This document shows, in pieces, positions 16,702-23,948 of a stretch of DNA of 64,000 bases (the stretch's first letter is position 1; each line of letters starts with the position of its first letter). The stretch spans positions 1 to 64,000 of the forward strand of contig JAJPHE010000090.1 in the NCBI GenBank assembly GCA_021325435.1, in the 5' to 3' direction. The translations under genes were made by a program, and so were the position numbers. The stretch is from Actinomycetota bacterium. Lineage in GTDB: Bacteria > Actinomycetota > Acidimicrobiia > Acidimicrobiales > JAJPHE01. The notes below the pieces were generated by a model, which searched no databases, had not been told where the DNA came from, and saw only the letters and a list, made by a program, of their open reading frames with translations.

Positions 16702-16725
16702 GCCTCCTCCCGCCTCCTCATCTGG

Positions 16726-16998
16726 TCACCACGGCCCGAAGCCCTCGTCGGCGTCGGGCCGGTGGCCCACCCAGGCCCGGGGGTAGAGCCCCATCATCGG
16801 CCGCACGCACTCGACCTTGATGTGAAGACGGCACCCGGCCGCCGTCACCAGGCGGTTCAGGGCTTCGAAGGTCGGCTGCATTCGGCCGGTCTCGATGCGG
16901 CTGATCGTCGACTGCGGCACCCCAGCCAGCAGGGCGAGATCCCGCTGGCTGGCACAGGCGTGATGGCGTACCTCTCGGATCACATCGGCGGCGGTCAT
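16726..16998 (-). CDS. Small XRE-family helix-turn-helix protein
   Basis: This 90-residue protein is mostly a Cro/C1-type helix-turn-helix (SQRDLALLAGVPQSTISRIE, then TGRMQPTFEALNRLVTAAG), residues ~18-65. It ends with a short tail rich in aromatic residues. Such proteins are repressors or antitoxins; no toxin-like gene is next to it. ATG 16998 is the first start that gives a compact protein; the frame stays open to 17892, but that part is compositional. Six copies of a GA(G/T)AGCGG motif lie just upstream (17009-17233), so autoregulation is plausible. The link between this protein and those sites is inference. Confidence 0.75.
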   Translation of the reverse strand: MTAADVIREVRHHACASQRDLALLAGVPQSTISRIETGRMQPTFEALNRLVTAAGCRLHIKVECVRPMMGLYPRAWVGHRPDADEGFGPW

Positions 16999-17008
16999 GA
17001 GTCGGAGT

Positions 17009-17233
17009 GATAGCGGTGGGTTGTGACCGTGGCGACGCGCCCGACCGTGAGAGCGGATCGGCTGTAGCGCACCGGTTGGGGGACCGATTTTTTCGACGGC
17101 CCATCCGCTCTCAGAACTTGGGTGCTCCCCGAGAGCGGAAACGCCGTCAAAAAATGCCTCGTCCCGCCCCCCTCTCCTGAGCGGATACGCCCTCACCGCC
17201 GCGGGAAGCCAGGGTTGCGTTCTCTCCGCTATC
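17009..17233. promoter_or_regulatory. Cluster of six GA(G/T)AGCGG motifs (candidate operator array)
   Basis: The 338-bp gap between the XRE gene and the coiled-coil operon holds GATAGCGG at 17009-17016 (+), GAGAGCGGA at 17049-17057 (+), 17104-17112 (-) and 17131-17139 (+), a shorter GAGCGGA at 17179-17185 (+) and GATAGCGGA at 17225-17233 (-). Several copies are followed by (A/T)ACGCC(G/C)TC. The array lies between divergent genes and could serve both. Whether the neighbouring XRE protein binds it is unknown. Confidence 0.55.
17087..17155. repeat. Long imperfect inverted repeat
   Basis: Left arm 17087-17112 and right arm 17131-17155 match in reverse complement over about 25 bp, with one extra C and three central mismatches. 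Each arm has a T6/A6 end, GACGGC and TCCGCTCTC; the loop is 18 nt. It contains two of the motif copies of the operator cluster. It could be a paired operator or, if transcribed, a strong hairpin. Confidence 0.7.
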
Positions 17234-17336
17234 GACACCGCGACGGGGCGGCCGTGGCCATGGTGTGACCAACGTCGTTTTTCGCCACCCACACCACTGG
17301 GTATCGCGACTCGGTACGCGATGGCAGGAGGAATTG

Positions 17337-17840
17337 GTGAGCGATCCGCAGCACGAGAAGGTGACCTCGGGCACCGTCGGCAAGGTGGTGGGCAAGGCCA
17401 AAGAAGCTGCCGGCGAGCTCGTGGGACGCGAAGACCTGGCGCGGGAGGGCCGCCTGCAGCAGGCGGCCGTCGACGCCGAGGTGGAGAGCAAAAGACGGCA
17501 GGAGCGCGCCGCTGAGGCCGAGGCCGAGGCCGAGCTGCACGAGAAGGAGCGCGAGATAGTCGTCGAGCGCGACCAGCTCCGCGAGGAGATCCGCGAGGAG
17601 CGCCAGGAGCAGGCCCTCGACGCCCAGGCCGCCCGAGCGAAGGCCGATATCGAGTCGGAGGCCCAGCGGGCCCACGAGCTGGCCGAGCGTCAGCGGCAGA
17701 ACGGCGAGCGGGCCGCCCAGGCCGAGCGGCAGCGGGCGGAGCGCGAGCACGCCACTGCCACCCAGCAGGCCCAGGCGGCGGCGGCCGCAGCCCAGGCCGC
17801 GGCTCAGCGGGCCGACGCACTCGACCCGAAGGAGGCGTGA
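17337..17840 (+). CDS. CsbD-like / coiled-coil protein
   Basis: The 167-residue protein begins with a CsbD-like segment (GTVGKVVGKAKEAAGELVG, then REDLAREGRLQQAAVDAE), followed by a long Ala/Glu/Arg/Gln-rich predicted coiled coil to the end. CsbD-type proteins are small stress-induced proteins of unclear mechanism. GTG 17337 is chosen because AGGAGGA lies 4 nt before it. The stop overlaps the next gene (GTGA), whose product has the same plan. Coiled-coil composition makes distant homology unreliable; function is unknown. Confidence 0.7.
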   Translation: MSDPQHEKVTSGTVGKVVGKAKEAAGELVGREDLAREGRLQQAAVDAEVESKRRQERAAEAEAEAELHEKEREIVVERDQLREEIREERQEQALDAQAARAKADIESEAQRAHELAERQRQNGERAAQAERQRAEREHATATQQAQAAAAAAQAAAQRADALDPKEA

Positions 17841-18457
17841 TGGTCGACATCCGTGCATTCCCCCGATCCGTATTCGAGCGGTCGGTCGACACCGTCCGCG
17901 CCCCGGTGGACGCCGTGGCCCGGCTGATCGGTGGCGGTCACCCCGCCTCCCCGGTCCGGGCCGCCATCGACCAGGCCGACGCCGCCGTACGCGAGACGGT
18001 CGGCCGCCTGACGGGCGACACCCACCTGGTGGCTGAGGCCCGGCGCCGCCGCGCCGCCGCCGACGAGCGTCACCAGGCGGCCCGGCTCCAGGCCGAAGCC
18101 GAGGCCAAGCGCCGCCAGGCCGACGAGAGCCTGGCCGCCGGCAAGCGGCGGGCCGAGGCACAGCGGCGGCGGGCCGCCGAAGCCGCCGAACGGCAGGCCA
18201 CGGCGGCGGACCGGACCAAGCAGCAGAAGCTGGCCGAGCTGGACCAAACCGTGAGCAAGCAGCGGGCCGCTCAACGCCGGGCGGCCGAGGTCCACGAGAA
18301 GGCCATCCACGACGAGGAGCGCCAGGCCCGACTGGCCACCCTCGAGGACGAGGAAGCCGCCCTGGCCCACGAGGAGGAGGCGCTGTCGGCCCGCGAGGAG
18401 GCTGAACGGCTGGAGGAGACGGCGGCGGCGGTGAAGGCGGCCAGGAAGGACAGCTAG
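17837..18457 (+). CDS. Ala/Glu-rich coiled-coil protein, companion of the CsbD-like protein
   Basis: The 206-residue product has a short N-terminal segment, then DTHLVAEARRRRAAADERHQ, which resembles the REDLAREGRLQQAAVDAE stretch of the preceding protein, then a continuous charged coiled coil to the C-terminus. No signal peptide or membrane helix is seen. The GTG start overlaps the upstream stop, so the two are translated together and may form a hetero-oligomer. ATG 17840 is an alternative start one codon later. Function not recognised. Confidence 0.65.
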   Translation: MMVDIRAFPRSVFERSVDTVRAPVDAVARLIGGGHPASPVRAAIDQADAAVRETVGRLTGDTHLVAEARRRRAAADERHQAARLQAEAEAKRRQADESLAAGKRRAEAQRRRAAEAAERQATAADRTKQQKLAELDQTVSKQRAAQRRAAEVHEKAIHDEERQARLATLEDEEAALAHEEEALSAREEAERLEETAAAVKAARKDS

Positions 18458-18485
18458 GGCCGCTGATCGCCAGTTTTTGACACCC

Positions 18486-18535
18486 TGACTTCGGCACCCG
18501 GAACTGCAGGACCCCGGGCCCGGGTGCCGAAGTCA
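18486..18535. repeat. Perfect 16-bp inverted repeat (REP-like or regulatory)
   Basis: TGACTTCGGCACCCGG at 18486-18501 is repeated exactly in reverse complement at 18520-18535, with an 18-nt loop. It sits between the coiled-coil operon and the GH18 gene. A T5 run lies upstream (18474-18478) rather than downstream, so it is not a standard + strand terminator. A dispersed palindromic element or attenuator is possible. Confidence 0.65.
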
Positions 18536-18540
18536 CATAG

Positions 18541-20247
18541 GTGGGACGAAGCCGACGCCGTCGCCTCCGGGCCGCCTCCGCCGAGCTGGTGGAGCGGGCC
18601 CGGCTCCGTTGGAGCGCCCCCGCCCGGATCCGGACCCGCCGGCGTATGCGGGTCCCCCTGCCCCGCCTCCGCCTACCGGCCGCACGGCTACGGATCCCCG
18701 TGCCCCGCCTCCGCCTGCCCGCCGTACGGCTGCAGATCCCCGTGCCCCGCCTCCGGCTGCCGGCGGTGCGCCTGCGGCTGCCGGCAACCCCGAAAGACTG
18801 GCCCGTGGCCGCCCGGGTCGGGGCCGCTCTCGGCGTGCTCGCCCTGGTGGCGGGTGGTTCCGCCACCCAGCTGGCCTCGGCTCCCGCCCGCCATCCGGTG
18901 GTCATCGCCGATCCAGACCCCAACCACCGGCCGGCGGCCTGGCTGCTCCAGCAGGAGCAGCTGGCCCCGGCTCCGCCGCTGCCGCCTGCGGCGGCCCCCC
19001 CGGCCCCGCCGCCTCCGGTGGTGTCCGCCGCCCCGGCCCTGCGCCCCCACGAGGTCTTCGGGTTCGCCCCGTACTGGACGCTGCCCTCCGCTGGCGGGTT
19101 CGACCTGGCCCACCTGACTACCCTCGCCTACTTCGGGGTCGACGCCGGCGCCGATGGCTCGCTCGTGCAGTCCGGCCCCGGTTGGACCGGCTACCAGAGC
19201 CAGGATCTGGTCGACCTGATCAACCGGGCCCACGCGGCCGGCGACCGGGTCGTCCTGTCAGTCGAGTGCTTCGACCAGTCCTCGCTCGACCGGCTGACGT
19301 CGGACCCCCAGGCCGACCAGCACCTGGCCGACGCCATCGTCGCCGCCGTGGCCGCCAAGTCCATGGACGGCGCCAACATCGATTTCGAGGGGACCGGCTC
19401 GGCCGACCGGGCCGGCATGGTCCGGTTGGTCGAATACCTCTCCCAGCGCCTGCGGGCCGCCAACCCGCACTGGCAGGTGACGGTCGACACCTACACCGGC
19501 TCGGCTACCGACACCAACGGCTTCTTCGACGTGCGGTCCATGGCCAACGCCGTCGACGCCTTCTTCGTCATGGCCTACGACATGGAGCGCAGCGACGCCC
19601 CGTCACCCAACGCTCCCCTCACCGGTCGCACCCCGAGCGACGCCGAAGCGGTGGCGGGGTACCTCTCTGCCGTCCCCGCCTCCAAGGTCGTCCTCGGCGT
19701 CCCCTTCTACGGCTACCAGTGGGCCACCACGGACAACACTCCCGGCTCGCCGGCCACCTCGGGCCCGGCGGCGGTCACCTACGCCCAACTGCGCTCCACC
19801 AGCGCTCCGGTCTACTGGGACTCCCAGTCCGACGTGCCCTGGACCGCCTACCAGGACCCCGCCGGTCAGTGGCACGAGGCCTACTTCGACGACCCCCACT
19901 CGGTGGCCCTCAAGGCCCAGCTGGCCAACCAGGCCCACTTGGCCGGCGTGGGCATCTGGGCCCTCGGCATGGACGGCAACGACCCGGCCATGATGGCCGC
20001 CCTGGTGGGCGGGGCCCAGGTGGTGAAGAGCTACTCCCCGGCCCCGGCCCCCACCACGACCACCAGCTCGACGTCGACGTCGACCACCAGCTCCACCTCG
20101 ACCACCAGCACCACCGCTCCGAAGCAGAAGTCCTCGGGTACGAGCGGGGGCACGAGCGGGGGATCCGGCAGCGGCTCGGGGGGCAGCTCCCCGCCGGTCA
20201 CTCAGCCGCCGCCCCCGACGACAGTGCCGACGCTGCCGAAGCTGTAG
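18541..20247 (+). CDS. Membrane-anchored GH18-family protein
   Basis: The 568-residue protein has four parts. Residues 1-82 are a basic cytoplasmic tail with three 14-residue repeats (RIPVPRLRLPAVRL). A membrane helix follows (~88-110), then a Pro-rich linker, then a glycoside hydrolase family 18 domain (~170-500). The GH18 signature is present as DGANIDFEG, with the acid Glu at about 283, and VLGVPFYGYQW is also typical. GH18 enzymes cleave chitin, peptidoglycan-like or related glycans; this one resembles the spore-cortex/SleL-type branch more than classical chitinases. The C-terminus is a Ser/Thr/Gly-rich tail. GTG 18541 is the assumed start. The enzyme likely works outside the cell, tethered to the membrane. 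Confidence 0.8.
   Translation: MGRSRRRRLRAASAELVERARLRWSAPARIRTRRRMRVPLPRLRLPAARLRIPVPRLRLPAVRLQIPVPRLRLPAVRLRLPATPKDWPVAARVGAALGVLALVAGGSATQLASAPARHPVVIADPDPNHRPAAWLLQQEQLAPAPPLPPAAAPPAPPPPVVSAAPALRPHEVFGFAPYWTLPSAGGFDLAHLTTLAYFGVDAGADGSLVQSGPGWTGYQSQDLVDLINRAHAAGDRVVLSVECFDQSSLDRLTSDPQADQHLADAIVAAVAAKSMDGANIDFEGTGSADRAGMVRLVEYLSQRLRAANPHWQVTVDTYTGSATDTNGFFDVRSMANAVDAFFVMAYDMERSDAPSPNAPLTGRTPSDAEAVAGYLSAVPASKVVLGVPFYGYQWATTDNTPGSPATSGPAAVTYAQLRSTSAPVYWDSQSDVPWTAYQDPAGQWHEAYFDDPHSVALKAQLANQAHLAGVGIWALGMDGNDPAMMAALVGGAQVVKSYSPAPAPTTTTSSTSTSTTSSTSTTSTTAPKQKSSGTSGGTSGGSGSGSGGSSPPVTQPPPPTTVPTLPKL
18649..18786 (+). repeat. 42-bp tandem repeats inside the GH18 gene
   Basis: Three units (18649-18690, 18691-18732, 18733-18774) and a partial fourth encode the 14-residue repeat R(V/I)P(L/V)PRLRLPA(A/V)RL in the cytoplasmic tail. 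They are in frame and coding, so this is not a CRISPR array. Confidence 0.75.
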
Positions 20248-22278: not shown

Positions 22279-23948
22279 CCCCGGGTCACCCCCGTCGGTC
22301 CCTCCGCCCCCACCAGCGGCTCGCCGTGGTTGTAGTCCCACACCGGCCGCTCGGAGCGGATGGGCGGCAGGCTCTCGAAGTTGTGGTGCGGGGGCGGCGA
22401 GGTGGTCCACCACTCGAGGGCGTGGCCGTCCCACGGGTTGCCCCCGGCAGGCACCGGCCGGCGCCAGGACACCCACATGTTGAGAAGGAAGAACACCATC
22501 GACAGCCCGAGCATGTAGGCGCCGGCCGAGGAGATCCGGTTGAGGACGGTGAAGCCGTCGCTCGGCTGGTACAGGGCGATCCGCCGGGGCATCCCGTGCA
22601 GGCCGACCAGGTACTGGGGGATGAAGGTCAGCCAGAAGCCGACGAACATGGTCCAGAAGTTGAGGTGGCCCAGGCCCTTGTGGGTCATCCGGCCGGTGAA
22701 CTTCGGATACCAGTAGTACCAGCCGGCGAACCCGCCGAACACCGAGGTGCCGAACAGCACCTGGTGGAAGTGGGCGACCACGAAGTAGGTGTTGTTCACG
22801 TAGAAGTCCAGCGGCGGGGAGGCGAGGATCACCCCGGAGAGGCCGCCGGCCAGGAACACCACGAGGAAGCCCACGGCGAACAGCATCGGGGTATCGAACA
22901 CGATCGAGCCCCGCCACATGGTGCCGATCCAGGCGAAGAACTTGATGCCGGTGGGGATGGCGATGAGCATGGTCATGGCCGAGAAGAACGGCAGGAGGAC
23001 GGCCCCGGTGGTGAACATGTGGTGGGCCCACACGCCGGTGGACAGCCCGGCGATGGCCAGGGTGGCGAAGACCAGGCCCTTGTAGCCGAACACCGGCTTG
23101 CGCGAGAAGACGGGGAGGATCTCGGTCACCATGCCGAAGTAGGGCAGGGCCAGGATGTACACCTCCGGGTGGCCGAAGAACCAGAACAGGTGTTGCCACA
23201 GGATCGGCACCCCGCCGCCGTTCACCTCGAAGATGTGGGTGCCGAAGTGGCGGTCGAAGTACAGCATCACCAGGGCGCTGGTGAACACCGGGAAGGCCAG
23301 GAGGATCAGGATCGCCGTCACCAGCATGTTCCAGGTGAAGATCGGCATCCGGAACATCGTCATCCCCGGCGCCCGCAGCCCGAAGATGGTCGTGACGATG
23401 TTGATGCCGGTGAAGATGGCCGAGAACCCGGTGAGGGCCAGGGCCATGATCCACATGTCCGGCCCCCGGCCCGGCGAGTTCTGGATGTCGGTCAGGGGCG
23501 AGTAGGCGGTCCAGCCGAAGGCGGCCGCCCCCCCGTTGACCAGGAAGCTGGCGAACAGGATGAGGCCGCCGGAGAGGTACAGCCAGTAGGACAGGGCGTT
23601 GAGGCGGGGGAAGGCCATGTCGGGCGCGCCGACCTGGAGCGGCATGACGTAGTTGGTGAAGCCGCCGAAGGCGAAGGGGCCGGCGAAGAGCAGCAGCATC
23701 ACCGTGCCGTGCATGGTGAACAGCTCGTTGTAGGCCTGCTGGCTGACCAGGTGGTTGTTGGGGCCGAGCAGCTGGGTGCGCATGAACATGGCCATGAGCC
23801 CGCCGCCGAGGAAGAAGATGATCGACGTGTACAGGTAGTTCTTGCCGATCACCTTGTGGTCGGTGGAGGTGATCCAGTACAGGAAACCCGTGCGCTCGTG
23901 GTGCTCGGGCTCGTGGACTGTCTCGTGCCGCTCGGCGAGAAGGGTCAT
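22275..23948 (-). CDS. ctaD: Cytochrome c oxidase subunit I
   Basis: This is the catalytic subunit of the aa3 oxidase (557 residues, 12 membrane helices). Metal ligands are visible: His in FTMHGTVML for haem a, HPEVYI with the CuB His and the cross-linked Tyr, WAHHMFTTG with the two other CuB His, and [11 protein letters not shown] with the haem a3 and haem a His. It reduces O2 to water and pumps protons. ATG 23948 overlaps the ctaC stop. The frame is open to 24059, but only inside ctaC. Confidence 0.97.

Follow-up and report, generated by a model that had tools for sequence, protein, structure and literature searches.

Small XRE proteins are known to act on autoregulatory regions with several operators, as at OR and OL of lambdoid phages. 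Similar regions exist in restriction-modification systems, whose C-proteins (for example C.Esp1396I and Kpn2I) are small HTH_3/XRE proteins with a number of quasi-palindromic sites next to their genes, in a divergent gap. Arrangements of this kind, in which a divergent gap holds several operators for one small HTH protein, follow a well-known principle, and the wider impact of a further case is therefore modest. The locus described here, from a window of 64,000 nt (the whole stretch of DNA analysed), resembles such autoregulated operators in having an XRE/HTH_3 gene adjacent to four upstream dyad sites plus a further motif copy, E. It differs from the C-protein and lambdoid systems in that neither restriction-modification genes nor a prophage were observed in the stretch read, and in that the six sites, all putative, lie inside one 240-bp inverted repeat.

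Two other groups of systems were compared. Structures of HigA antitoxins match the XRE protein of this locus in both sequence and fold, and its nearest NCBIfam family is couple_hipB (Y4mF). However, the score of 39.1 bits is below the cut-off of 71.65, no toxin partner gene is present in the XRE operon or the local neighbourhood, and the site layout is not comparable with that of HipB/Y4mF-type and HigA operators; a type II toxin-antitoxin system was therefore rejected. A resemblance of GCGGATA to a HipB half-site was dropped because the order of the half-sites differs. MITE- and REP-type elements are likewise long imperfect intergenic inverted repeats, but the repeat here occurs as a single copy with no related element in the genome, plasmids, or phages, so that membership of a dispersed, multiple-copy family was rejected. 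Integron attC was also rejected, no R'/R'' core being seen at the repeat ends by eye against the consensus.

Motif copies and the long inverted repeat

The gap between the divergent XRE and csbD-like genes is 336 bp (nt 17001–17336), slightly shorter than the 338 bp given in an earlier note on this DNA. The motif GAKAGCGG, an 8-mer and not a 9-mer as that note had it, occurs exactly five times, at nt 17009 (+), 17049 (+), 17105–17112 (-), 17131 (+), and 17226–17233 (-). A sixth, degenerate copy (CTGAGCGGATACGCC) lies within nt 17177–17194, where CTGAGCGG replaces GAKAGCGG. All six fall within 225 bp and in both orientations as claimed, although the six copies claimed come down to five exact and one degenerate. 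In the whole genome (4.008 Mb, 160 contigs), GAKAGCGG was found 363 times, corresponding to 0.02 expected per 225 bp; the density is thus far above chance, as had been proposed, with a Poisson probability of 2e-11 for at least five copies in 225 bp and of about 4e-7 over all genome windows of that size. When the 64-kb window was scanned for local clusters of 8-mers with one wildcard, this cluster ranked first, but clusters of comparable nominal significance were observed at nt 22661 and 47201, so that the cluster alone is notable and not extraordinary.

An imperfect inverted repeat of about 25 bp with T6/A6 ends, also noticed earlier, proved to be real (nt 17089–17112 and 17131–17154; 24 nt, 83%, 18-nt gap) but only the core of a long and degenerate inverted repeat that spans about 240 bp (nt 17002–17241). 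Its arms (approximately nt 17002–17112 and 17131–17241, with an 18-nt loop and the centre at 17121.5) share 76% identity, with 79 of 104 aligned positions identical in a gapped alignment of about 110 bp per arm, and similarity is also present outside the motif copies. The repeat takes up the greater part of the divergent gap: it starts immediately outside the start codon of the XRE gene and stops 37 bp short of the -35 of the csbD-like gene. The alignment score of 32 exceeds that of every other inverted-repeat centre in the 64 kb (runner-up, 29) and compares with a mean of 10.3 and a maximum of 21 after shuffling of the arms (n = 3000); the outer part alone, with the core excluded, was equalled at 0.44% of other centres. 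A repeat reaching into both coding regions was rejected, the rise in score from 32 to only 37 over about 110 more bases per side being taken as drift.

The six copies form three mirror pairs, with three copies in each arm. Motif copy E (GATAGCGG, nt 17009–17016, + strand), found by pattern match, is paired with copy F (GATAGCGG, nt 17226–17233, - strand), found by pattern match and arm alignment. Site D (GAGAGCGGATCGGCTGTA, nt 17049–17066, + strand; pattern match and dyad analysis), which holds the quasi-palindrome AGCGGATCGGCT, is paired with the degenerate site C (CTGAGCGGATACGCCCTC, nt 17177–17194, + strand; arm alignment and dyad analysis). The core arms carry, on the left, site A (GAGAGCGGATGGGCCGTC followed by GAAAAAA, nt 17095–17112, - strand) and, on the right, site B (GAGAGCGGAAACGCCGTC followed by AAAAAA, nt 17131–17148, + strand), both located by pattern match and inverted-repeat search. 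Relative to 17121.5, the dyad centres of the 18-bp sites lie at -104, -64, -18, +18, +64, and +103. About 0.3% of random layouts are equally symmetric. This figure is somewhat generous, because the data themselves guided the choice of the dyad offset and because, with raw 8-mer midpoints in place of dyad centres, the centre of the D/C pair shifts by 5 bp. Spacings between successive sites are 40, 46, 36, 46, and 39 bp, which are not whole helical turns.

An 18-bp quasi-palindrome is common to the inner four sites, A to D (21 of 36 pairs; column-shuffle p = 0.006), as would be expected for the sites of a dimeric HTH regulator, while copies E and F possess no dyad. In the alignment, sites D and C look like two derivatives of GAGCGGATCCGCTC, a perfect palindrome, and may have had such an ancestor.

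The long form of the motif, allowing up to 3 mismatches, was found in the 4.0-Mb genome in the two arms only, as expected for a private autoregulator, and was absent from two other genomes of the same family. A genome-wide regulon was rejected: the count of 363, which the earlier note had suggested making, is near background (309 for the reversed control), and the reading is further undercut by the confinement of the long form to the arms and by the 15-mer core, which has no other exact copy in the whole genome. Pairs of the form GCGGAW-N8-38-WTCCGC, a pattern covering the convergent layout only, were not enriched in the genome (84 versus 134).

The XRE gene, the csbD-like pair, and their predicted promoters

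The nearest regulator is, as previously stated, a 90-residue XRE protein encoded just left of the array (nt 16729–17000, - strand), with Pfam HTH_31/HTH_3 above the cut-offs. The HTH occupies residues 3 to 60, approximately, and beta-strands are predicted in the C-terminal part. The AlphaFold model, of modest confidence (mean pLDDT 67), has helices at residues 3–14, 18–25, 29–36, and 44–53. Top Foldseek matches include multi-operator autoregulators, C.Esp1396I being among the best, although every match had E > 0.001. On its 3' side the gene is convergent with qcrB, and its divergent neighbour is the csbD-like gene. The ATG is located near nt 17000, at the edge of the gap, with no obvious Shine-Dalgarno sequence. 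Copy E is situated about 9–16 bp upstream of this ATG. By reading of the sequence, a possible -10 (TATCAC), predicted to give a leaderless transcript, lies a short way before the ATG and shares bases with CCGCTATC, the reverse complement of E; copy E thus probably overlaps the likely XRE promoter.

The gene at nt 17337–17840 (+ strand) encodes a protein of 167 aa with a coiled-coil tail. It matched Pfam CsbD over residues 11–44 only (E = 5.7e-7; 29.8 bits, cut-off 40) and NCBIfam MBP-1 (1.8e-9; 37.8 bits, cut-off 80). Because the score is below the Pfam gathering cut-off, the predicted product is called CsbD-like or MBP-1-like and is not assigned as a member of CsbD. A second coiled-coil protein of 205 aa is encoded at nt 17840–18457 (+ strand) in the same operon, with overlapping stop and start. 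It has weak similarity, at 25.5 bits against a cut-off of 80, to microaggregate-binding protein 1, and the two genes may thus be diverged duplicates.

Upstream of the csbD-like gene, a putative SigB-like promoter, TTTTCG-N14-GGGTAT (nt 17279–17304, + strand), was recognized from the sequence, from comparison of orthologues, and from the SigB consensus GTTTAA-N12-14-GGGWAW (PMC8346170). TTTTCG-N14-GGGTA, which fits this consensus, is present upstream of csbD both in the genome of the window and in its relative G001. A -10 of the GGGTA type recurs upstream of csbD-like orthologues across the order (L041–L046 and L091–L095), several in similar positions, and in L042–L045 it follows a GCTTGCT/GCTTACT-like element at a distance of roughly one promoter spacer. 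This suggests a conserved SigB-type promoter for the csbD-like orthologues of the order. The csbD-like gene keeps its own predicted promoter; the array ends ahead of the -35, and sites F and C are located upstream of this promoter.

Possible function of the repeat

We tentatively read the 240-bp repeat as a multi-site operator private to this locus, an assignment with somewhat less than an even chance of being right. It would serve as a cis-regulatory region common to the two units, XRE and csbD-like, that diverge from it. The three operator-like sites of one arm mirror those of the other, and the quasi-palindromic ones would be bound cooperatively by a dimeric HTH regulator, for which the neighbouring 90-aa XRE protein is the likeliest candidate. 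The XRE protein would occlude its own promoter via site E, and the csbD-like operon would be modulated from sites upstream of its SigB-like promoter. That the sites bind a protein, that this XRE protein is the binder, and which way control would run are what we infer from the arrangement. The earlier proposal of a multi-site operator for the XRE gene and the CsbD-like pair agrees with the location, the inner dyad, the fold of the XRE protein, and the lack of a genome-wide regulon, but it missed the pairing of the copies by the long repeat, through which six 'independent' copies shrink to three per arm. Counting against an operator are the non-helical spacings, copies E and F without a dyad, arm similarity beyond the motifs, the modest XRE model and Foldseek E values, and the lack of a conserved array among the genomes searched. 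The fuller version, in which an orphan XRE protein controls both itself and a SigB-type stress coiled-coil operon through a mirror array that probably arose by inverted duplication of an operator, is possible but doubtful. Binding by the XRE protein would make the locus a small autoregulatory switch, open to testing, for csbD/MBP-1-type stress proteins of a bacterial order that has been little studied, and also an example of an operator array multiplied through inverted duplication.

As the arms pair all copies, an inverted duplication or a mobile element enters as the main rival. The repeat would then be the relic of such a duplication, or a hairpin or MITE-like element beside the XRE gene, and the motifs would be the best-preserved parts of arms of about 110 bp with no regulatory role. 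Pairing of six copies across one long repeat, arm identity of 76%, and similarity beyond the motifs are in its favour, as are the signs that the block has moved, G001 having qcrB and the GH18-type gene without it in between, and the presence in this near relative of a different dispersed inverted-repeat family with one copy upstream of its csbD. Yet the repeat is single-copy in the genome, the region matched no plasmids or phages and the motif no viral contigs, and no clear target-site duplication was seen by eye at nt 17002/17241; moreover, duplication alone leaves both the threefold recurrence of the motif within each arm and the dyad of the inner sites unexplained. A relic without regulatory role has, in our estimate, roughly one chance in four. 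A little less probable still is that the sites are operators of another regulator of the csbD-like stress operon and that the XRE gene is merely an unrelated neighbour. Elsewhere, csbD-like genes count among the stress genes, the array stops upstream of the SigB-like promoter, and G001 retains the csbD pair without an adjacent XRE gene; however, such a regulator would be expected to have further genomic sites, whereas no further long form and no other exact copy of the 15-mer core was found, and csbD orthologues lack the sites.

Action of the repeat as folded RNA, as an attenuator or an antisense hairpin within the leader of a transcript, appears very unlikely. The minimum-energy fold of the + strand is one long hairpin formed by both arms, and the core hairpin is formed on the - strand too, but the z-scores against shuffled sequences are just -1.55 and -2.22, there is no Rfam match, only 6 of 25 mismatched positions are G-U on one strand or the other, and the predicted csbD promoter lies downstream, placing the repeat outside its transcript. 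An intrinsic terminator was likewise rejected, since on either strand the core hairpin carries T on the 5' side and A on the 3' side, opposite to the order in a terminator; the terminator scan gave one weak match (nt 17073–17086). Least credible of all is a chance cluster in GC-rich DNA picked post hoc: similar nominal clusters and gapped inverted-repeat scores of up to 29 do occur within the 64 kb, but chance would hardly account for five copies against 0.02 expected, nor for the exact centring of the mirror layout and the 24-bp core repeat besides.

Relatives of the locus and the repeat family of G001

No close orthologue of the XRE protein was found in 99 relatives, 395 class members, or GTDB contigs, and the motif was absent from the 300 bp upstream of all the more distant XRE loci located. 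The array was not found in any relative searched, and csbD orthologues possess neither the array nor the sites. With no XRE orthologue and no conserved array, there is no phylogenetic footprint and conservation cannot decide the case.

The csbD-like pair has relatives within the order, the nearest in G001 (61% identity for the first protein), where the pair is placed elsewhere. The gene immediately after qcrB in G001 is the GH18-type gene, whose counterpart in the window (nt 18541–20247) comes after the pair. The block from the XRE gene to the coiled-coil gene (window nt 16720–18500) is absent between the two in G001 and is thus placed differently in the two lineages.

A dispersed family of intergenic inverted repeats (TTTCACATGGTCCGAA ... 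TTCGGACCATGTGAAACCG, frequently with a G-rich run after it), absent from the genome of the window, was observed in G001, with 13 matches versus 0 in the control. Its loci include L041:2140–2240 (G001:C142:14441–14527), L100–L104, and L107–L112, and the copy upstream of the G001 csbD lies at about the same distance from that gene as the repeat does in the window.
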